The position numbers and the translations under genes are program-made. From positions 1-24,894 of the forward strand of contig CALEZT010000126.1 of the NCBI GenBank assembly GCA_937927975.1: 24,894 nt of DNA, in the 5' to 3' direction. The DNA is from an uncultured Phycisphaerales bacterium. GTDB taxonomy: Bacteria; Planctomycetota; Phycisphaerae; Sedimentisphaerales; Anaerobacaceae. Positions 3,847 to 22,400 of the stretch are shown piece by piece. Position 1 is the stretch's first letter. Every line of letters begins with the position of its first letter. Below the pieces are notes generated by a model. That model worked only from the letters and a program-made list of their open reading frames with translations. It had not been told where the DNA came from and made no database searches.

Positions 3847-3928
3847 TCACCGAGGGAAGAGGAGGCGAAGGCAGGAAGCGAACAGGACCCGAAAACGCGA
3901 CCGACAGAGAGCCACTGTCCTGGGGCCA

Positions 3929-4057
3929 GTAGAAGCGTGGAAGCGTAGATGCATGGATGCGTTCGGAAAGAAGCACGCCGAGCCTTGCCCGATCCCTAAC
4001 GCTTCCACGCTTATACGCTCACACGCTCCAACGCGGCGTCCCGCCGCACCGAGCCAC
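3929..4057 (-). repeat. MITE-like intergenic repeat, copy 3 (inverted)
   Basis: GTAGAAGCGTGG (3929-3940) and CCACGCTTATAC (4005-4016, one mismatch) form terminal inverted repeats around a 64-bp interior. The flank 4017-4057 is the reverse complement of 899-937, with the same GCGGCGTCCCGCCGC hairpin. Together with the arms at 309-773 and 4203-4666 it gives mirror symmetry. The gap 3796-4396 holds this, the CTCTGTGG repeat and the second arm; no gene. Confidence 0.7.
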
Positions 4058-4202
4058 GGGTCACGAGACACGAGTCACTGCGGCCCCTGGCCGCCCGACG
4101 CTTCCGCCCCGTCCCGCCGTACCCCGCCTTCGTTCGTATTGACGCCGCCACGAGACGCCGATCCCCTCAGGCCCATTGCAGTGCCTGACCACGGTCTTAC
4201 GT

Positions 4203-4666
4203 CTTGTATTTTTTCTTGGATTCGTATGATCTTTCTCTTGCAAGTTCAACGGGGGGAACGCATAATGGATCTTTGTCGAGACCTGAGCAACGATTGATGA
4301 CGACACCTTCGCGAAGCGGGATGGGATCGGCGGTGGTGGTTCCTCGTCTTGGAATCGCCGGAACCAGGGTTCTCTGGGGAGAAGGGAGCCGAAGCGATGG
4401 GATGCAGGGAGAAACGAATTCGCCGAGCGAAACTGCCTCCGGGCGACAGAAGGGTCGCCTCCGCCCCAATTATCCATCACAAATCATCCTTCATCAATTC
4501 CGATGGCTTCACCCTCATCGAATTGCTCGTGGTGATCTCCATCGTCGCGCTACTGATGGCGATCCTGCTGCCGACGCTCCAGCGGGTCCGCAAACAGGCG
4601 AAAGCCGTTGTCTGCCAGTCGAGGCTACGCGAGCTGGGGCTGCAGTCGGCAATCTACATACAGGAG
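4203..4666 (+). repeat. Arm 2 of inverted repeat (pseudopilin promoter, leader and N-terminus)
   Basis: Reverse complement of 309-773 at about 97% identity; the perfectly identical core here is 4359-4587. It spans the promoter, the leader and the first ~90 codons of the copy 2 gene. Synonymous sites inside the core are unchanged, whereas the rest of the two proteins has diverged strongly. Confidence 0.9.
4238..4266 (+). promoter_or_regulatory. Predicted promoter of pseudopilin copy 2
   Basis: TTGCAA (4238-4243), a 17-nt spacer, CATAAT (4261-4266), identical to the copy 1 promoter. The predicted start near 4273 gives a leader of about 124 nt. Confidence 0.5.
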
Positions 4667-5299
4667 CAAATCGGTTCAATGAACGCCGCGCCATACAGTG
4701 ACTGGTGGCTTTCTCACTGGTCATCAATACGCTTGGGTCGCGGATTGGTGCTCTGTCCTTCCGCTCCGACGCCGCTGCCCGGGCCCCCCGTCCCCTGGGG
4801 CGATGTGTTTCATGCGTACGCCTTCGGACGAGTGGACCCTGCGGCGCCACCGGAGAAGCGCAGTGTGCTGGGGTATGGCAGTTACGGTTGGAACGCGTGG
4901 TTGAACTACACCCCCGACGAGATGCACCCGTGGAAAGGGCGCCTGTGGCGTGGCCCGGATGTCAAGGGACCCTCGCGGGTACCGGTGTTCTTCGATTGCA
5001 CCCATTGGTTCGCGGGACTTCATCATCTGGACCCGCCACCCAAGCAGCCGTTCACGCCGCCCCCCGAGCTGAATCCCAGCTCCTATTATGGCGATCGTGT
5101 GTCGTATCTATTCATAGAGCGTCATGGCCAGGGGATCAACATGGTGTTTCTCGACTGGTCGGTGCGCAGGGTGGGTCTGAAAGAGCTCTGGACACTCAAG
5201 TGGCACAAGGAATACGACACGAGCGGACCCTGGACCAAGGCCGGAGGGGTGCAGCCGGAGCAGTGGCCGGCGTGGATGCGAAAGCTCAAGGACTACTGA
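4397..5299 (+). CDS. Type II secretion pseudopilin-like protein (copy 2, full length)
   Basis: 300 residues. A long basic leader (37 residues, ending Asp-Gly) precedes FTLIELLVVISIVALLMAIL, the class III signal and membrane helix of pseudopilins. The extracytoplasmic body ends with RHGQGINMVFLDWSVRRVG, an H-x9-D-W version of the H-X9-DG processing-associated motif found in large planctomycetal pseudopilin families, and KEYDTSGPWTKAGG. ATG at 4397 is preferred because AGGGAG lies 8 nt upstream; the frame is open upstream to 4349. Expected fate from family knowledge: cleavage after Gly37, N-methylation and insertion in the inner membrane. It stands alone, with no secretion genes next to it, so a surface-display or sensing role is as likely as a structural pseudopilus part. 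Confidence 0.85.
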   Translation: MGCREKRIRRAKLPPGDRRVASAPIIHHKSSFINSDGFTLIELLVVISIVALLMAILLPTLQRVRKQAKAVVCQSRLRELGLQSAIYIQEQIGSMNAAPYSDWWLSHWSSIRLGRGLVLCPSAPTPLPGPPVPWGDVFHAYAFGRVDPAAPPEKRSVLGYGSYGWNAWLNYTPDEMHPWKGRLWRGPDVKGPSRVPVFFDCTHWFAGLHHLDPPPKQPFTPPPELNPSSYYGDRVSYLFIERHGQGINMVFLDWSVRRVGLKELWTLKWHKEYDTSGPWTKAGGVQPEQWPAWMRKLKDY

Positions 5300-5638: not shown

Positions 5639-6010
5639 ATGGAATCAATGAGATGTTCACAGGCATCTCTCGTGCTGGGCATCGCACTCGGTGTGGGCGC
5701 CCTCTGCATGGGAATGATGCCGCTCAACATAGGGTCGGGTTCTGTATTCGGAGGTTACTTTGAAGACGCTTTGATTGAGGGACACTGGGTGGCGGTGGAC
5801 TCGGCTTCAGGTGGTTGCCAATACTGCAGCAGTGCGTCGATGCGAGCATGTTCAGAGTATTTGAATGATGGCAATCCCATTTGCACCGGAGGGTGGGCCG
5901 TAGTAGCAACGTGCGGTGGTTCCTGGACAACGCATGCGACTGGACTCGCCGGTTGTCTGGGGCATTCGTATTGCACTGATCTCTACGATGCCACGTGCAC
6001 CTACGACTAA
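5639..6010 (+). CDS. Small secreted cysteine-rich peptide precursor
   Basis: 123 residues, no family recognised. Residues 8-32 form one hydrophobic segment (SLVLGIALGVGALCMGMM) that should act as a signal peptide or anchor. Two Gly-Gly sites follow (SVFGG-YFED and SASGG-CQYC). The last 65 residues carry eight cysteines, starting CQYCSSASMRAC and ending YCTDLYDATC, with few charged residues: a likely disulfide-rich exported domain. GGGAGG (5625-5630) 8 nt before ATG supports the start. It is the first gene of a plus-strand group with a C39-type peptidase, a glycosyltransferase and a MauE-like redox protein, which suggests it is their substrate. Both the processing site and the modification are inference. 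Confidence 0.65.
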   Translation: MESMRCSQASLVLGIALGVGALCMGMMPLNIGSGSVFGGYFEDALIEGHWVAVDSASGGCQYCSSASMRACSEYLNDGNPICTGGWAVVATCGGSWTTHATGLAGCLGHSYCTDLYDATCTYD

Positions 6011-6170
6011 GCAGAGGCCCGACTTCATGTGAGACACCGTTCTTGTTGAAGCAGTGGGTGTGGAGCAAGGCTCTATGGTACTCCACACCCACTGGCGGGT
6101 TCTTTCTTGTTGGCACGTCACATGGAAATGTTCCTCTGTCAACCGTGCAGCCCGCAGACAGGAGGAAGAG

Positions 6171-8465
6171 ATGCATGGCACGCTATTGGGGCTTCTATCT
6201 CTGCTGGCGCTTCTGCCGGCAGCGGGTGTTTCACATCCCTCGACGCCCCTGGACGTGATACAGCGGTATACCTTGAATCAGGACCATTTCAAGTCCTGGC
6301 GCATGGAGTACGAGGCCACGCAGAAGTCAACAACGACCCGCGATCCGAACCGGATCGACATGAGCTATCACACCTGCGACCTGCGATACGACGGCGAACG
6401 GGTATTCTGGCGGTGGCGCCGGTGGGGTGGCGTCGAGGGCACGCCGCATTTCACGCCGAAGGACAACACGCACTACTTGGGTATTCTCTGGGACGGCCAA
6501 ACCCACAGCAGCTACCGGGCGAAGGATCAGGAGGGAAAAGGCCTTATCATCCTTGACAAGAACCCGCGTCGGGAGGACATCGACGCCTTGCTGTATGATA
6601 ACATGGTGGGCTCCTTCATGGGCTGCCATCAGAATGCGTTCGAACGTGTCGATGAGATTCTGCGCTCGGCCAACCGCACTTCGCTGCGCGATGAACGGCA
6701 GGCGGTCAACGGGTCAGAGTGTCTTGTCCTCGATGCTACGACGGATTACGGCGAATACACGGTCTGGATCGATCCCGGGCATGGATACAATATCGCGAAG
6801 GCCGAGATCCGTGCCAGAGCGGCCCAGAAGCACCTCTACAGAGGTCGCCCCGTTCGCGCCGGAGAATCGATACTCAAGGTCGACATCCTGCGCTTCGAGG
6901 AGTTCGAGGGGGCATGGATGGCAGTGGAGGGTACGTGGGAACACTCGTATGATCGGCATGACGGAGCAAGGCAGAAGACGGAAACCCACGTGCGGATAAC
7001 CGATCTGACCGTGGCTCCCGACCACGAGGCGCTACGCTCCTTCGTCAGGGACGACGTTCCGAACGGCACTGCGGCCTATATCGCGCCCTTTGCCCACATC
7101 CGCCATACCTGGGAGGACGGCAGTCTCGTGCCCGAATTCGACGGAGAAGCGGTCGGCAAGATCGACGAGATCGTACAGGAGATGCTTGGGCACAATGACC
7201 GTGATTCCGACTCGATGGCTCAGGGGAAACCGCAATCAGACCTGCCAGTACCGGTGGAAAGGCCGGACCAGGAGTTGCTGCCCCAAACGCCGGTGGTGGA
7301 GACCGGTGCCCACGCAGCCGAGGGTATGACGGACTTGCAGCAGGTTCGCGAGGAGCAGACCGACGCTCAGCAACAAGACCGCGCGGCCCGGAAGGGCCGC
7401 AAGGTGCAACATCCCCATTGCGGCCTCTACTGTGTCTATACTCTCGTCGGCTTGACCGGCGGACAGATGGACTTCTCCGATCTGGTCAAGTCGGAGTATC
7501 TGGGGCAACGAGAAGGCAGTTCGCTCTGGGAGGTCCGCAAAGCGCTGCTGGACCATGGTCTGAGCGCAGAACCGGCCGCAAGGCTTACGGTGGGCGGCTT
7601 GAAGAAGTGCCCCTACCGAGCGATACTACACGTTCGGGCGCATCCGGAATCACCCCAATACGATCACTACGAGTTGTTCCTGGGTGTGGAGAATGGCAAG
7701 GCTCGCCTGTTCAATCCACCCCAAGAACCACGGCTGGTGGAGTTCAAAGACTTGGCGCCGCGTTGGGATGGAAGGGCGGTGGTCGTATCAGACGGTCCGG
7801 TGAACATTGCCACGGTTCTCGCGCCCGACCGGCAACGATGGCTTACGTACGCGATCGTCGGTGTACTTGTGCTTGTCGTGGCGCACTTCGCCAGATGGCT
7901 CTGGCTCTCAACCGTTCCTTCGATCCCGCGAAGGTGGGCTCTCTGGGTGTCGTCAGGGCAGTTGGCCGCGATTGGTCTGGCGGCGTTGGTGTGTGGGACG
8001 CTCTGCCAGTTCGTCAGTGAGGCAGGACTGCTCTCAAATGCTTCTGCCACGCAGTCTCTCCAGAGAGGATACGCCGGCAGTTTCATCCCGAAGGTCCGCG
8101 AAGGCAGGGTTCGCGAGCTTCTCGGGACCAAGACGGTGTTCGTAGACGCCAGACTCGCGGGCGATTACGAGCGGGGCCATCTGGAGGACGCGATCAGTCT
8201 GCCCATCGACGCCAACGATGTGTTGTGGAAGGCGACGATTGAGAAGATCCCCCGGCATGCGCATATCGTGACCTATTGCCAGAGTGCCGGCTGCAAGTTC
8301 GCCGAGACGGTGTCGCTGAGACTGATCGAAGAAGGCTACTCAGACGTTTCGATCTTCAAGGGAGGCTGGGCCGAATGGGCGTCTAAGCATGGGCGGTCCC
8401 AGTCGCCGGCGCCGGTAGAGAAGGAGGTAGAGAGCGACAATGCAGAGCAGAACGATCCCGCGTAG
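6171..8465 (+). CDS. Secreted C39-like peptidase / two-TM / rhodanese fusion protein
   Basis: 764 residues. A signal peptide (residues 1-21, LLGLLSLLALLPAAGVS) leads into a large domain (about 22-390) that I compare with LolA-like lipoprotein-sorting folds (YTVWIDPGHGYNIAKAEIR); this is tentative. A C39-like cysteine peptidase follows at about 410-540: C417 in HCGLYC, H499 in YDHYELFLG, and N515 in LFNPP where C39 enzymes usually have Asp; Q413 may serve the oxyanion hole. Two membrane helices (about 558-579 and 594-615) then place a rhodanese domain (650-745, C703 in YCQSAGC) outside the cytoplasm as well. The ATG at 6171 has AGGAGG 5 nt upstream; the frame extends to 6054 without a site. 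No ABC transporter is fused, unlike bacteriocin exporters. It overlaps the next gene by 26 bases. Confidence 0.82.
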   Translation: MHGTLLGLLSLLALLPAAGVSHPSTPLDVIQRYTLNQDHFKSWRMEYEATQKSTTTRDPNRIDMSYHTCDLRYDGERVFWRWRRWGGVEGTPHFTPKDNTHYLGILWDGQTHSSYRAKDQEGKGLIILDKNPRREDIDALLYDNMVGSFMGCHQNAFERVDEILRSANRTSLRDERQAVNGSECLVLDATTDYGEYTVWIDPGHGYNIAKAEIRARAAQKHLYRGRPVRAGESILKVDILRFEEFEGAWMAVEGTWEHSYDRHDGARQKTETHVRITDLTVAPDHEALRSFVRDDVPNGTAAYIAPFAHIRHTWEDGSLVPEFDGEAVGKIDEIVQEMLGHNDRDSDSMAQGKPQSDLPVPVERPDQELLPQTPVVETGAHAAEGMTDLQQVREEQTDAQQQDRAARKGRKVQHPHCGLYCVYTLVGLTGGQMDFSDLVKSEYLGQREGSSLWEVRKALLDHGLSAEPAARLTVGGLKKCPYRAILHVRAHPESPQYDHYELFLGVENGKARLFNPPQEPRLVEFKDLAPRWDGRAVVVSDGPVNIATVLAPDRQRWLTYAIVGVLVLVVAHFARWLWLSTVPSIPRRWALWVSSGQLAAIGLAALVCGTLCQFVSEAGLLSNASATQSLQRGYAGSFIPKVREGRVRELLGTKTVFVDARLAGDYERGHLEDAISLPIDANDVLWKATIEKIPRHAHIVTYCQSAGCKFAETVSLRLIEEGYSDVSIFKGGWAEWASKHGRSQSPAPVEKEVESDNAEQNDPA

Positions 8466-10641
8466 TGGGCCGGCGTTGACTCTGTCGGAGGTTCGAGGCC
8501 GATTGCTGGAGGCGTTCGCGGGTAGAGCTGCGCAGAGGCAGGTGCTCGTATACCTGCTGATTGTTGTCTGTACGGCGGTGTTCTTCGCGCACTTGCCCGC
8601 GTTGTCGGCTCGCGCCCAGTTTCTCGATGACCAGGATTATGTGGTGAAGAATCCTCTCGTGAATCACCCGTCGTGGGAATCCATCGGCCGTTTCTTCTCC
8701 GAGGTATGGAAGCCGTCTACGGTCCGAGGTTACTATCAGCCGCTGACGATGGTGTCCTTAATGGTGGATCGTTTCCTCGGCGGTCCGTATGAGGACATGA
8801 GAGTCTATCACCGCACCAGTCTGTGCCTGCACGTTGCCAATACTGCCTTGGTGGGCGCGCTGCTCTACGTGCTCTTCGGCCGGCCCTTGATTGCCGCGGG
8901 GGTCGCGCTGCTGTTCGGCTTGCATCCCATGTCGGTGGAATCGGTCTGTTGGATCGCCGAGCGAAAGACGGTCCTGGCGACGTTCTTCGCGTTGTGGTCG
9001 CTAATCTACTATGTGCGATTCGCACGCGACGACTGCAGGCGTTACTACGTCGTCTGCCTGACGACGTACATCCTGGCCCTGCTGTCCAAGCCGATTACGG
9101 TCCCTTTGCCCGCGATGATGTTGCTGATGGACTATTGGCTGCTGAACCGGCTTGGCCGCAGGGGGATTGTCGAGAAGCTACCCCTATTTGCGGTTGCCTG
9201 CGTCTTCGGGGTGATCACCTATCTGTCGCAGAGTAACGCGGGGGCCGTGCACTTGCCGGGGCACTATAATCCCCTCCATATCCCGCTGATTCTCGCCCAT
9301 AACATCGTCTTTTATCTGTACAAGTTCATCTGGCCCGTTCACCTCTCAGCGTACTATGAGTTTCCCTCGCCCATGAGCCTCGCGCATCCGATGGTGTTGA
9401 TAGGTGTTATCGGGACGTGTCTTCTCATTGCAGGTTTGGCCTTCTCGCGTAGGCGCACACGTGCGCCGCTGGCCGGCTGGCTGATCTTCTTCGTAATGAT
9501 CCTGCCAACCATGGGGATCATCAGCGTCACGCCGACCATCGCGGCCAACCGGTATGCCTATTTGCCTTCTGTAGGCTTCCTGATGGTGCTGACGGCGCTA
9601 TTCTCATGGATGACCCGAGTCCGTGTCGATGCCAACCAGGGCCGACGCACGGCGATGGTGATGGTGTTCGTGCTCGCTCTGGCGGGCTTGGAGACGATCC
9701 CGATGCGTCACTACCTGACGCAGTGGCGAGACTCGGTGGGGCTGCACGAGTACATGCTGTCGATAGACCCGCGGTCAGTGGGCGTCCACGCCAACCTGGG
9801 AGTCGAGTTCACCAGACAGGGGAACATCCGCGACGCTATTTCCCACTACCACATCGCATTGAGCGAGTCACCCGGCAGGGCCCACATTCGCTACAATCTT
9901 GCCGTTGCACTCCAGGGTCTGCCCGACAAAGCAGATGAAGCGATTGAGCAGTACCAAGAAGTGCTTAAGGCAAATTCGATGTTCAGCCTGCAGGCCGCTC
10001 TCAATCTGGGGAATCTCCATCTTCACAAAGGGCAGATTCATCTGGCCATTGAGAACTACCGCAAGGCGCTGGAAATCAGACCGCTGTTCGTCGCGGCTCG
10101 CTGTAATTTGGGCAAGGCATTGGTCATAGCCGGTGAGTGGGCCGAAGGCATCGAGCACCTGCGTGAGGCAGTCCGCCTTCAGCCCGGTTTTCTCCTGGCG
10201 AAAAAGGAACTGGCGTGGTTCCTGGCGACACACCCGAGCGCCGAAGTCCGGGACGCGAATGAGGCGATCCGACTGGCCGAGCGGGCAATGGCAATGACCG
10301 GCGGCCGAGACGTGGGCGTGCTGGATACGCTGGCGGCGGCGCATGCCCTAGAGGGGCGGTACAAAAAGGCCGTGGAGACGGCGGAGAAGGCCCGGGCGCT
10401 TGCCGTGCGGGTCCGGAACCACGAACTGGCGGACCAAATCCAAGAGCGTTTGCGGTTGTACCAGTTCGAGTGTCCCTACTATGAGGACCCGAAGGTGCAG
10501 TTGGAGCGACTGATGGCCAAGCGCCAGGCTGAAGCCTGCACGCCGGAGATGAGAAGGCAAGCAACTGACGACTGTGAACTGGAAACGGACAACTCGGCAC
10601 AGGAGGTTCTGGATGAAGCTCAGACGACTGCTACCCGGTAG
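8440..10641 (+). CDS. TMTC-like membrane glycosyltransferase with TPR repeats
   Basis: 733 residues. The first helix (34-52) is followed by an extracytoplasmic loop with F-L-D63-D64-Q-D-Y, the acidic motif expected in GT-C/PMT-type transferases, then roughly ten further helices up to about residue 420. From about 445 to 690 there are TPR motifs (GVHANLGVEFTRQGNIRDAI, AALNLGNLHLHKGQIHLAIE, AARCNLGKALVIAGEWAEGI). This order resembles TMTC O-mannosyltransferases and their many planctomycetal relatives. From family knowledge it would move a sugar from a lipid-linked donor onto an exported protein; the acceptor is unknown. AAGGAGGT (8421-8428) sits 11 nt before the ATG, inside the upstream gene, so translation is probably coupled. 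Confidence 0.85.
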   Translation: MQSRTIPRSGPALTLSEVRGRLLEAFAGRAAQRQVLVYLLIVVCTAVFFAHLPALSARAQFLDDQDYVVKNPLVNHPSWESIGRFFSEVWKPSTVRGYYQPLTMVSLMVDRFLGGPYEDMRVYHRTSLCLHVANTALVGALLYVLFGRPLIAAGVALLFGLHPMSVESVCWIAERKTVLATFFALWSLIYYVRFARDDCRRYYVVCLTTYILALLSKPITVPLPAMMLLMDYWLLNRLGRRGIVEKLPLFAVACVFGVITYLSQSNAGAVHLPGHYNPLHIPLILAHNIVFYLYKFIWPVHLSAYYEFPSPMSLAHPMVLIGVIGTCLLIAGLAFSRRRTRAPLAGWLIFFVMILPTMGIISVTPTIAANRYAYLPSVGFLMVLTALFSWMTRVRVDANQGRRTAMVMVFVLALAGLETIPMRHYLTQWRDSVGLHEYMLSIDPRSVGVHANLGVEFTRQGNIRDAISHYHIALSESPGRAHIRYNLAVALQGLPDKADEAIEQYQEVLKANSMFSLQAALNLGNLHLHKGQIHLAIENYRKALEIRPLFVAARCNLGKALVIAGEWAEGIEHLREAVRLQPGFLLAKKELAWFLATHPSAEVRDANEAIRLAERAMAMTGGRDVGVLDTLAAAHALEGRYKKAVETAEKARALAVRVRNHELADQIQERLRLYQFECPYYEDPKVQLERLMAKRQAEACTPEMRRQATDDCELETDNSAQEVLDEAQTTATR

Positions 10642-11158
10642 GGAGAGGGCATTGTCTGCGTTCGTGCTGGTGGTGCGGCTGGGGCTGGGGTTCATGTTCA
10701 TCGTGAGCAGCATGCCGAAGATCCTCCAGCCGTACGTGTTCCTCGGCAGTGTGTACGGCTATGAGTTGGTCGGGCCGAAGCTCGGTGTGCTCGTGGCGAT
10801 GGTGCTGCCGTGGGTGGAGCTTCTTGCCGGCGTGTGCCTGGTTGGCGGGGTATTCGTGGGCGGGGCGCTGCTGGCAAGCATAGGCATGGCAGCGATGTTC
10901 ACGTTCGTGCTGGGCTATGCCCTGTGGAATCATCTGGACATCAGTTGCGGCTGTTTCAGCAGTTCGGCGGCGGGGAAGATCAGCTACATGACCTTGATCC
11001 GGGCCATCGTGATCATGGTCGTAAGCGCGATGGCCTACGTTGGGGTGATTCTCTTGCAGCCCAAGCAATGGGTGCCGAGGGCACAGCCTGAACCAGACTC
11101 TGAAGATGCGAATGAAGTTGGGTCGGCTGCCGGGAGACTGGCGCCAGCGTCAGAGTGA
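10613..11158 (+). CDS. MauE/DoxX family redox-associated membrane protein
   Basis: 181 residues with about four helices (16-33, 58-80, 84-105, 128-148). The C112-G-C114 motif after HLDIS at the end of the third helix is the redox centre expected in MauE-like proteins, which support disulfide formation in methylamine dehydrogenase maturation; DoxX relatives share the fold. AGGAGG (10601-10606) 6 nt upstream fixes the ATG at 10613, inside the preceding gene (29-base overlap). Beside a Cys-rich exported peptide and an exported rhodanese domain, a role in oxidising or exchanging thiols is a reasonable inference. No methylamine dehydrogenase subunit is present. No terminator was found after the stop. 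Confidence 0.85.
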   Translation: MKLRRLLPGRERALSAFVLVVRLGLGFMFIVSSMPKILQPYVFLGSVYGYELVGPKLGVLVAMVLPWVELLAGVCLVGGVFVGGALLASIGMAAMFTFVLGYALWNHLDISCGCFSSSAAGKISYMTLIRAIVIMVVSAMAYVGVILLQPKQWVPRAQPEPDSEDANEVGSAAGRLAPASE

Positions 11159-11282
11159 CCCTTCAGGGCCAGGCGGAGCGAGCGGAACGGTGCTAGGTGA
11201 TCTTTCCGGCGTGTGACAATCGCTTTGTGCCCAGAGCGGCGGTTTCGGTCGGCTGTTCCTGGTGCGGCGGGTCGCGGAGAAG

Positions 11283-11390
11283 GGTAGAAGCGTGGGAGCG
11301 TGGGAGCGTAGAAGCGTTGGAGGGGGCTGAAAGAACGCCGGGCTCCTCTTCCAGAACGCATTCACGCATCTACGCTTCCACGCTTCTACC
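11283..11390 (+). repeat. MITE-like intergenic repeat, copy 4
   Basis: GGTAGAAGCGTGG (11283-11295) and CCACGCTTCTACC (11378-11390) form a perfect 13-bp terminal inverted repeat. Pairing continues imperfectly over about 37 nt per arm (AGCGT units), leaving a loop of some 35 nt, so the whole element could fold as one long hairpin. The interior is unlike copies 1 and 3. Confidence 0.7.
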
Positions 11391-11400
11391 GTCCCCCAAC

Positions 11401-11827: not shown

Positions 11828-12742
11828 ATGGGAAAGCGAAGCGGACAAGCAAGAAGTCAAGAGGCAGAGGGAAAAAGGGCGAAGGCGAGACCAGGAAAGG
11901 CGGTCGGGGCGGCGCCTGCGTCGCGTGTGCGGGGGCCCAGGTCGCGGCTGCGGGTTCCGCCGCCGGAGAGCGACGCGTGGCCCGAGCAGTATCGCGGGGC
12001 CAACTGGAAGCCGGCGTACGCGTTCATTTTCGCGGGCAAGTGCCAGTTGTGCACGCACTCGTGTCCGCTGCCCAGGTCGCGGCAGTTGCGCGACAAGTGG
12101 ACCGGCACGACGCGCCTGCTCCAGTGCACCAACCATCCGGCCTGTCCCGGCGAGATCGAGGAGGTCCTGCCGACGGATACGTGCCGGAATTTCAAGACGA
12201 AATGGTGGCGGAGGCCCAGTGACAAGGCGTTGAAGCGTCCCCATCCGACGGGGTGCAGGAACCGTCGCGGCGGCAAACGCATCCCTCTGGGCAACGGGCG
12301 GTTCGCCCTCGTCAGCGCCGCCGACTACGAGAGGGTGAGCAAGTACAAATGGTACGCGAGTCGTCACGGGCGGACGACCTATGCCATCACGCTGGGCAGC
12401 GCAGGCGAGGTGGCCATGCATCGCATGATCATGCGTCCGCGGAAAGGCTACGTCGTGCACCACGCCGACCACAACGGGCTGAACAATCGCCGGGACAACC
12501 TGCTCGTGTGTACGCCGCGACAGCACATGGCCGCACGGGGCCCTGTCGGCGGAGCCTCGCGATTCGTGGGCGTGTACCGACGGGGCGACAAGTGGGAGGC
12601 GCGGATTCGGTGCCGCGGGAAGGTGTACTATCTCGGGTACTTCGACGACGAGATCGCGGCGGCCAAGGCCCGCGACCGAAAGGCGTACGAACTGCACGGC
12701 AAGCTCGCATACTTCAACTTCCCCGAGGATTACGAGTTCTGA
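11828..12742 (+). CDS. HNH endonuclease with AP2 DNA-binding domain and N-terminal Cys cluster
   Basis: 304 residues. A basic tail (1-45) leads to a Cys-rich segment with C72, C75, C79, C100, C106 and C119 (CQLCTHSC, then CTNHPAC), probably a zinc-binding domain of unknown type. An HNH_3-type nuclease core follows at about 195-235: MHRMIMRP, then H211-H212-A-D214-H-N216 and NNRRDNLLVC. The AP2 fold is at 244-298 (RFVGVYRRGDKWEARI, YYLGYFDDEIAAAKARDRKA). HNH-AP2 proteins are typical free-standing homing-type endonucleases of phages and mobile introns. AAGGA is 7 nt before the ATG. No intron or intein is visible around it. Its promoter region adjoins the dispersed repeats, in line with a mobile past. 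Confidence 0.85.
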   Translation: MGKRSGQARSQEAEGKRAKARPGKAVGAAPASRVRGPRSRLRVPPPESDAWPEQYRGANWKPAYAFIFAGKCQLCTHSCPLPRSRQLRDKWTGTTRLLQCTNHPACPGEIEEVLPTDTCRNFKTKWWRRPSDKALKRPHPTGCRNRRGGKRIPLGNGRFALVSAADYERVSKYKWYASRHGRTTYAITLGSAGEVAMHRMIMRPRKGYVVHHADHNGLNNRRDNLLVCTPRQHMAARGPVGGASRFVGVYRRGDKWEARIRCRGKVYYLGYFDDEIAAAKARDRKAYELHGKLAYFNFPEDYEF

Positions 12743-19498: not shown

Positions 19499-22400
19499 TC
19501 ACTCGCCGGTCTGGACGACGCGCGGTTCGACCGACCTGGCGGCGTCGCCGACCTTGACCTCGACCGGAGGCTGTTGGGTCGGAGCGGCCTTCAACTGCTC
19601 GATCGTGGTCTTGAGCGTGTCCGCCTGGCTCTGGGTGCTCTTGTGCACCTGGCTCATCTGCTCCTGGAGCTGGGCCTGAGTCTGACGAAGCTGCGAGAGG
19701 GCGTCGATCATCGCCTGCACGTCCTGGGCGATCTTGGCCTCGAATCGCTGACGCTGCTGTCCGTTTGCGTCGAGCGCGGCGCTGGTGGTCGCAACGCCGG
19801 TCTGGAGGACGCCCTGGAGTTTGGCGAGTTGCTGGTCGAGCGTGGCAATGCCGTCGGCCATCGCCTGAATCCGGGTTTGGACCGTGTCGAATCTCTCGGT
19901 CCAGCTCTGCTGGCCCTGGGCGATCTCGGTCAGTTTGACGGTCACTTCCGCACGGCCGGCCTGGGCTGTCTGATCGGACTTGGTCTGGATTTCGCTGAGG
20001 GCGGCGATGTCGCGAACCGCTTGTCCTGCGGTCGTCGCCACGGCGTCGATGCCGTTCTGGGTCTTGTGCTGATTCTCGTCCAGCTTGGCGATCCGACCGA
20101 TCACCGATTCATCGTGACTCTGGATCGCCGAGGCAAGCGTATCCTGCCGGCCGGTCACCGCGACCAGATCCTTGGCGGTCTGTTGCGAGGTGGCGGCGAC
20201 GGCATCCAGGCCGCTCTGCATCTTCTGCTGGTTCTCATCGAGCTTGGCCATCCGAACGTCGGTCGAGTCGTTGTGGCTCTGGACGGCCTTGGCGAACTGG
20301 GTCTGCCGCTCGGCGGCTTCAATCACGTTCGCCGCCGTTTGTCCAGAAGTGACGGCCAGCGTGTCCAGGCCGCTTTGCATCTTCTGCTGATTCTCATCGA
20401 GCCTGGCCATGCGGACGTCGGTCGAGTCGTTGTGGCTCTGGACGGCCTTGGCAAACCGGGCCTGCCGCTCGGCGGTTTCCACCACGTTCGCCGCTGTCTG
20501 TTCGGCCGTGACGGCCAACGCATCCAGGCCGCTTTGCATCTTCTGCTGGTTCTCATCGAGCCTGGCCATGCGGACGTCGGTCGAGTCGTTGTGGCTCTGG
20601 ACGGCTTTGGCGAACCGGGCCTGCCGCTCGCCGGCTTCGATCACGTCCAGGGCGGTCTGTCCGGCGGTGGCGGTGAGCACGTCGATGTCGCTCTGCATCC
20701 GCTGCTGATTGTCCGCAAGCCTGGCCATATGGCCGGTGGCGGAGTCGCTGTACGCTCGGACCATGCCGGCAAGGGCGTTCTGCCGATCGGATGCGTCGAT
20801 CACGTCCGCCGCGGTCTGGCTCGTGGTGGCGGTCAGGACGTCGAGTTGGCTGCTCAGCGTGTTCTGATTGTCGGCGAGCTTCGCCGTGCGGGCGATGATC
20901 GCGCTGTCCCCGGCGGCGATGGTCCGGTTCAGCTCGGCATGGCCGGTGGCCAGTCCCATGACGTCCAAAGCCGTCTGGCCTGCGGTGGCCGTCAGGACAT
21001 TGAGGCTTTCTGCGAGGTCTTTCTGGTTGTTGTCGAGACGGGCGACCCGTCCGCTGATCTCGTCGCTGCGAGTGGTCAACGCGCTCTGAAGGGTGTCCTG
21101 GGCGAGCGATACCGCGGTGAGGTCCGCGTAGGCCCGATCCATGACGCCCGCCATGCGGGTGAGATCCGCCTTCATGGCCTGCTGATTCTCGGTCATCCTG
21201 GCGGCCTGAGCGGCGATCGCCTGGTTCATGGCCGAGTTCAGCTCGATCATGCCCTTGACGTTCATCGCCGTCTGGTCGGCTCTCTCATGAAGACCATTCA
21301 TGCCCGTCTGCATCGCCTGCTGGAAGGTCGCCTGGCTATTGTTCAATGTGAGCATGGACAGGGCGGTCTGGCTGGTGGTCGCCGTGAGGAGATCCACCTG
21401 GCCCCGAAGGGCCTGCTGGTGCTCGGCCAATCCGGTCATGCGAGTCGTCATCGCGTCATTGTGATTCAACTGCTGCCGACGGAAGGCGTCCTGCGCCGAG
21501 GCCATTGCGCCCAGTTCCGTGGACACCTGCCGGGTCCGGACGCCGAGGTCTGCGATCGCGGCATTCGTGCTCCGGTGGTTGTCGGCGACCGCGGCTGCGT
21601 GGGCGGCCAATTCAGAAGTCATCGTATCGGATTTGACGCCGATCTGTTCGATGCCTGAACGAAGAGACTGATGCCCGTCGGAGAGTCCGGCCATCGCAGT
21701 GACGATCTCATCGTGGTGAGCTCGTGCGACGTCTTTCGCGGTTGCCTGCTCGGTTGCCACAACCGCGAGGTTCCCAGCCATCGCGTCCGTCTTGCTGTGG
21801 AGGTCCTGGACGGCGGTCCGGATCGCCTGCTGATTCTGGAGGCTTGCGGCCATCCGGTCTGTGACCACTTCCTGTCCGGTCCGCAACGTCTCCTGGAGAG
21901 AGGCGACTGCGGTCTGAGATTCCGACGAGGCTTTGTCCGCTTTTGCATTCAATACGTCGATGCGGGCCTGGAGGTCTTGTTGGCCCGTGGCCAGCCCGGC
22001 GATCCGCGACGTCACGGCGTCGTGGTCGGTCGCGAGCCTTTGCTGCAGAGTCGAGGCCGCGCCGGCCAGATCTTCGTTCATCCGGACCATTCTGCCGTCG
22101 AGGATCTCGATGCGTGCCTGGAATCTCTGCTGCGATTGCGTCAGACCTGCGAGTCGGTTATCGACCTGTTCGTGGTTGGCGGTGATTGAATCCTGGGTCG
22201 TCTTCTGGGTCGCGGCGATCGCGGCGAGCCGTTCAGCCAATTGGGTGTTGTTGTCCTGGAGGGTCGAGGACAGGGCGTCCTGCTTGCCCGCCACGGAGGC
22301 GATGCTTCGGGCCAGCGATTCATCCGCCTCGTGCAGGCGAACGACGCCGGCCTGAATGCCTTGCTGGTTGCTGACGACGACGCCCATGTGGGTGTTCAAC

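Follow-up and report, generated by a model that had tools for sequence, protein, structure and literature searches.

A predicted transporter-free system for double-glycine peptide maturation outside the cytoplasm of Planctomycetota

A stretch of 24,894 nucleotides from an uncultured Phycisphaerales bacterium (contig CALEZT010000126.1; hereafter, the window) carries genes for a Cys-rich peptide called CysP, a C39 peptidase fused to a rhodanese, a TMTC-like glycosyltransferase and a MauE-like membrane protein. We propose, with a probability of about 0.6, that they encode a double-glycine peptide maturation system that has no transporter and acts outside the cytoplasm. It would represent a class of systems in Planctomycetota in which the C39 peptidase has left the ATP-binding cassette (ABC) exporter, is itself exported and is fused to a thiol enzyme, a rhodanese here and a thioredoxin in a sister system. 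Cys-rich peptides exported by Sec would lose their leader, gain disulfides and, optionally, be O-glycosylated, all outside the cytoplasm. To our knowledge, double-glycine leader cleavage is known only from the cytosol, where it is coupled to ABC export. If the proposal is correct, this cleavage takes place outside the cytoplasm as well, with no transporter involved, and Planctomycetota make Cys-rich secreted peptides missed by searches keyed to peptidase-ABC exporters. The 346 proteins retrieved with the separated form of the C39-transmembrane-rhodanese protein (expectation value [E] ≤ 1e-10 among 7998 scored candidates) would gain a predicted substrate and function.

CysP starts with a hydrophobic helix (residues ~7 to 25), followed by a flexible linker that ends in Gly38-Gly39 and by an 84-residue core containing 8 Cys. 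This Gly-Gly leader was absent from the original prediction, an earlier reading of the window sequence that had proposed a four-gene maturation pathway. Among 23 aligned precursors, the Gly38 column is invariant and is followed by Gly, Ala or Ser in every row, just before the Cys-rich part. The leader is about 39 residues long (36 to 42), or 26 in locus L101, where the start is uncertain; L100, which lies outside the alignment, has SAQVIGG at the same place. A G[GAS] motif was found at residues 36 to 43 in 21/23 precursors against 6.1 expected, and none of 200,000 simulated draws was as high, in a test that shuffled the residues after position 25 and whose rows are not independent, five of them being tandem relatives. 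Leaders of C39 substrates are described as typically ending in GG, GA or GS, and the glycocin precursor SunA as cut after GS (PMC6363468). The ending of the leader thus links the C39 peptidase to the Cys-rich peptide. AlphaFold2 modeling of the window CysP gave a mean predicted local distance difference test (pLDDT) score of 81.2 and a predicted template modeling (pTM) score of 0.62, with residues 29 to 37 below 50 and core blocks at 80 to 92, although two of the five models scored poorly (about 54). The best model shows the helix at residues 7 to 25 and, modeled with confidence, a beta-rich core that starts at residue 40, and no solved fold matched this predicted core.

The 764-residue window protein combines a Pfam Peptidase_C39 match above cut-off (4.6e-6, 26.9 bits versus a cut-off of 22) with a predicted double-glycine protease fold. 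Foldseek searches with its model (mean pLDDT 73.8, built from 12 sequences) retrieved the double-glycine protease LahT with its leader (6mpz) and ComA (5xe8), both at a TMt of 0.75. The C39 part also resembles the PCAT1 peptidase, and the rhodanese, a clear Pfam match as well (1.1e-13, 51.9 bits versus 22.2), matches 3o3w. The protein has no ABC domain; its C39 domain is followed by two transmembrane helices and the rhodanese. Residue conservation was assessed over an alignment of 147 rows, made up of 120 from the set of 346 database proteins, 9 plus 12 earlier rows and 6 distant ones; some proteins appear twice. The C39 Cys (C417 in the window) is kept in 144/144 ungapped rows and the His (H499) in 147/147, and the third catalytic position is Asp or Asn in 145/147 (Asp in 82, Asn in 63). 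Of 127 proteins, 123 have a hydrophobic segment at the N-terminus. The loop between the transmembrane helices carries on average 3.8 Lys plus Arg residues versus 0.1 after the second helix (140 proteins), indicating that the loop lies inside and the rhodanese outside the cytoplasm. The peptidase, too, is probably outside, for which its signal-like N-terminus is a better argument than charge.

Both partner activities predicted to act on thiols keep their Cys residues. In the CQSxxC loop of the rhodanese, the first Cys (C703) is found in 142/147 rows and the second, five residues on (C708), in 146/147, while the CGC motif of MauE is present in 20/20 aligned copies; L047 was left out, a masked stretch covering the motif. 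In the sister system of L104, a C39-thioredoxin fusion adjoins a double-glycine precursor with 13 Cys [5690-7153 (-) and 8719-9159 (-)]. The presence of a thioredoxin in place of the rhodanese in this single locus supports a thiol role of the partner domain. The L104 precursor has the motif SADELSQVIGG, with Glu-8, Leu-7, Val-4, Gly-2 and Gly-1 and without Leu-12. This locus also encodes an N-domain-like protein, and the C39 part of its fusion resembles NHLP bacteriocin exporters below cut-off.

The conservation of the rhodanese and MauE Cys residues, along with an odd number of core Cys in 9/23 precursors, would also suit a sulfur or redox relay, in which the rhodanese and MauE load CysP, and CysP serves in the periplasm as a carrier of thiol, persulfide or metal instead of being released as a bioactive peptide. 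We regard such a relay as quite unlikely. In the five tandem copies of L098 and L099, loci with two or three tandem precursors, mean pairwise identity is 75% for the leaders and 47% for the cores, unlike what would be expected of a conserved carrier. A leader conserved above its core is the pattern usual for precursor peptides. Judged from sequence, relatives of the small open reading frame (ORF) evolve as protein: the ratios of nonsynonymous to synonymous substitution rates were 0.18 and 0.22 for two presumed orthologous L098/L099 pairs and 0.42 for a more diverged pair. These were computed on relatives; for the window ORF, no close DNA relative was available.

The initial protein search yielded 11 relatives of the full fusion, with 39 to 51% identity, and one relative of the window Cys-rich peptide, with 65% identity; the nearest named relatives belong to Phycisphaerae/Sedimentisphaerales metagenome genomes. 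Matches to the C39-transmembrane(-rhodanese) protein were found in 17/161 genomes of the order sample (13 strong, with 16 places, and 4 weak or partial), in 7/397 of the class sample, one of which (G210) is additional to the order's matches, and in 6/392 of the phylum sample, five of them new. We compared the surroundings at 23 places, namely the 16 in the planctomycete order, 6 outside it from the class and phylum samples and the window itself (L039 has two places). The rhodanese is present in 22 of these. A MauE-like gene adjoins the C39-transmembrane gene in 21/22 assessable places, the first copy in L039 being at a contig end; in L045, MauE is upstream on the opposite strand. A Cys-rich ORF lies beside the C39-transmembrane gene in 20/21 places, a count that leaves out L043 and L052, both cut by contig ends. 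The precursor ORFs of L098 and L099 are downstream of MauE. In L050, a C39-transmembrane protein [10103-11005 (+)] stops before the rhodanese domain, yet it adjoins MauE and a 15-Cys precursor.

Searching the 161 genomes of the order with a precursor profile identified 14 places, every one beside a strong C39 place; 13 of them were in the profile, and G002 (E 0.005) was not. A mechanical precursor scan covering both strands of 28 loci (430 kb) gave 25 matches, 22 of which adjoin a C39 gene. All-against-all comparison of 23 loci, once shadow matches to the same genes (antisense or out of frame) were removed, returned as families recurrent in at least 3 loci the N-domain/C39-rhodanese, MauE, CysP, pilin-like and TMTC-like proteins and three further small families in 3 loci each. 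The arrangement recurs far beyond chance, and the peptide, the C39-rhodanese and MauE form a conserved module to which the glycosyltransferase is an accessory. That these are unrelated exported proteins, neighbors by chance, is scarcely credible. The inconstancy of the TMTC-like gene and the pilin-like neighbors, which in several loci lie on one strand or the other, could be read that way, but the conservation of the neighborhood across 23 places, including 6 beyond the order, contradicts it.

The original prediction is thus supported as to an extracytoplasmic maturation whose shared substrate is the Cys-rich peptide, the genes for the peptide, the C39-rhodanese and MauE traveling together in Planctomycetota, and its own check, that homologs should not be scattered in related genomes, came out in its favor. 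Of its four genes, three form the module and the fourth is optional, as the TMTC-like gene occurs in 6/23 places; in L044 it is split into two pieces and lies about 3 kb upstream. The C39-rhodanese fusion it described is real in the window and in its nearest relatives and is composite, the N-domain and the C39-transmembrane-rhodanese part being two separate, adjacent genes in many other relatives.

Several points weigh against the proposed system. Precursors within the order were chosen by position and Cys number, those of distant loci were selected by eye from several Cys-containing ORFs, and that of L104 came from a scan that demands G[GAS]. Among the loci, no precursor was found in L102, that of L051 is a piece only (profile E 0.005), L046 has no MauE nearby and L050 has no rhodanese. 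The window leader does not have the Leu-12/Glu-8/Leu-7 consensus of known C39 substrates, and among the 23 precursors Glu-8 and Leu-7 occur together in L104 only. Instead of Asp, the window protein has Asn515 as its third catalytic residue. C39 enzymes carry an oxyanion Gln before the Cys, and this Gln is not conserved in the aligned rows. The 15 residues before the first transmembrane helix also carry 2.95 Lys plus Arg, so charge alone leaves the side of the C39 domain unsettled, and the odd core Cys numbers mentioned above count on the same side. The Asn, the absent Glu-8/Leu-7 consensus and the unconserved Gln leave room for a different substrate mode.

Signal peptidase I could instead cut the leader. 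The genes would then still act together, with signal peptidase I removing an ordinary signal peptide, the C39 domain having another substrate or only binding, and the two Gly forming a structural linker. The resemblance of the CysP N-terminus to a Sec signal speaks for this, as do the unconserved Gln and the Asn of the window. We find it unlikely, since the C39 Cys and His are constant wherever they are aligned, a constancy not required of a domain that only binds, the position of G[GAS] is fixed in nearly all precursors and the best CysP model places a disordered linker before the two Gly and a folded core behind them.

No Pfam family matched the separate N-domain. By Foldseek, it weakly matches MucB bound to MucA (6in9; E 7e-6, TMt 0.24, root mean square deviation 18, with a multi-domain model). 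Paralogs of the N-domain also stand alone without C39, some in tandem, in L053 to L057; those of L053, L056 and L057 follow sigma-factor-like genes, named by eye. Similar ORFs, also named by eye, lie near the C39 loci L102 [11928-12683 (-)] and L104 [4002-4694 (-)], a possible regulatory link. These observations raise the alternative of a regulated-proteolysis sensor, in which the MucB-like domain and C39 would control a single-pass Cys-rich sensor as RseB/MucB control anti-sigma factors. It is very improbable, as no sigma-like family recurs in at least 3 of the compared loci and almost nothing of CysP would lie in the cytoplasm ahead of its helix.

In the double-glycine maturation system that we favor, Sec would export CysP, whose N-terminal hydrophobic helix would anchor in the membrane with the Cys-rich core outside. 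C39 would then cut CysP at the Gly-Gly site, while the N-domain perhaps holds the leader or the precursor. The rhodanese CQSxxC and MauE CGC, whose Cys are conserved, would set or repair the core disulfides, and, optionally, the TMTC-like GT-C enzyme would O-glycosylate the peptide from a lipid-linked sugar. The predicted product is a secreted, disulfide-bonded peptide of about 60 to 85 residues in most loci; it is a guess that it is antagonistic or a signal. D63-D64 of the TMTC-like protein, to which the original prediction assigned glycosyl transfer, lie in its DD motif, which occurs in the first outer loop in 5/5 aligned copies (the sixth, that of L044, was left out because it is in two pieces). 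An independent tie to glycosylation comes from L100, where a fusion protein [8527-9777 (-)] joins MauE to a GT2 domain that has sub-cut-off NCBIfam matches to polyprenyl-phosphate sugar transferases; a PMT_2 protein [6725-8593 (-)] follows it.

By analogy, the closest counterparts are the glycocin clusters (sublancin, glycocin F and thermoglycocin), so the original statement that no system with this set is described was too strong, even though C39 is part of an ABC exporter there. In glycocin clusters, as described in PMC12457901, a C39 peptidase removes the leader of a Cys-rich precursor, and a glycosyltransferase and thioredoxin-like thiol-disulfide enzymes are also encoded. The Cys-rich precursor with a C39-type leader and the glycosyltransferase are thus common to both. 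Here, by contrast, there is no ABC exporter, C39 is predicted to be outside and is fused to a rhodanese, and the glycosyltransferase is an optional GT-C membrane enzyme, whereas that of glycocins is cytosolic, of the S/O type, and acts before C39-ABC export. The planctomycete precursor moreover has its own export helix and a core predicted to be beta-rich. PCAT1, ComA and LahT share the C39 fold, the Cys/His pair and leaders ending in GG, GA or GS; the systems described here differ in having no transporter domains, a C39 predicted to be outside and 22/23 leaders without Glu-8/Leu-7. MauE stands beside a Cys-rich substrate in the MauE/MauD maturation of methylamine dehydrogenase and in candidate ribosomally synthesized and post-translationally modified peptides of Streptomyces, as here. 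For the latter, decRiPPter is described as having found three families that contain mauE and whose precursors have 8 or more Cys; they belong to a different phylum, and the parts of that report considered here name no C39-rhodanese for them (PMC7794033). TMTC O-mannosyltransferases of the GT-C/PMT clan are described as having a DD motif in the first outer loop and C-terminal tetratricopeptide repeats (TPRs), as here (PMC7801869), whereas the protein discussed here is bacterial and only a predicted glycosyltransferase, and one of 5 copies has Lys in place of the Arg of the RxxY motif.

A long stem lies 3′ of the precursor gene in many loci. Stems of at least 10 bp were found 3′ of the precursor stop in 11/18 gaps versus 14/599 random 140-bp windows, and stems of at least 12 bp in 8/18 versus 4/599. 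For each of the 11 gaps, none of 60 shuffles gave as long a stem; the hairpin sequence differs among loci. The fold of the entire window gap is not unusual relative to shuffles (z -1.13), and a terminator scan did not call the window hairpin as an intrinsic terminator. The single long stem is what stands out in this gap. It is possibly an attenuator or an mRNA stabilizer, and it may let precursor mRNA exceed that of the processing enzymes.

The four plus-strand ORFs of the original prediction and their overlaps of 26 bases (C39-rhodanese/TMTC-like) and 29 bases (TMTC-like/MauE) were confirmed (Table 1). The strong ribosome sites it had placed in these overlaps were borne out for MauE, whose likely start, ATG 10613, has AGGAGG 6 nucleotides before it, and not for the TMTC-like gene, whose site is weaker (GGAGG 12 nucleotides from the ATG). 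The mechanical ORF of the C39-rhodanese begins at GTG 6054. ATG 6171 is the likelier start because AGGAGG lies 5 nucleotides before it, the C417/H499/C703 numbering of the original prediction fits it and GTG 6054 is inside the hairpin. Pfam also matched MauE (1.2e-22, 81.1 bits versus a cut-off of 27) and TPRs in the TMTC-like protein; CysP had a sub-cut-off match only, and no NCBIfam model matched any of the four proteins above cut-off. The PA2778-family C39 peptidase, with its PA2779 partner, is a known C39 domain without an ABC transporter; its model, NF033920, gave only a sub-cut-off match, which fell in the TPRs of the TMTC-like protein.

Table 1. Positions of the predicted features in the window
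Feature	Position	Strand	Remarks
CysP, Cys-rich precursor	5639..6010	+	123 residues, 10 Cys; GGGAGG 8 nucleotides 5′ of ATG
Gly38-Gly39 codons, predicted C39 cleavage site (cut after Gly39)	5750..5755	+	From aligned precursors
Long hairpin between precursor and peptidase genes	6052..6094	+	14- to 15-bp stem
N-domain (MucB/LolA-like), Peptidase_C39, two transmembrane helices and rhodanese	6171..8465	+	764 residues
TMTC-like GT-C glycosyltransferase (predicted) with C-terminal TPRs, accessory	8440..10641	+	733 residues
MauE-like membrane protein, CGC motif	10613..11158	+	181 residues
Pseudopilin-like (N_methyl) gene, directly upstream	4349..5299	+	Pfam; membership in system doubtful

Same-strand pilin-like genes are also found 5′ of the precursor in L038, L039 (twice) and L040. 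Elsewhere in the window, a 508-nucleotide inverted repeat (255-762 and 4213-4720, 95% complementary, 3450 nucleotides apart) flanks a Gfo/Idh/MocA oxidoreductase gene, and its arms contain the starts of two opposite-strand pilin-like genes. Repeats of the type GTAGAAGCGTGGAAGCGT occur in both orientations outside the main genes, at 894-960, 3922-4057 and 11256-11396. Four direct copies of a 300-nucleotide stretch, with 159-nucleotide spacing and 63 to 75% identity to the first copy, occupy positions 20017-20793 within a minus-strand ORF of 1183 residues that has no Pfam match above cut-off.

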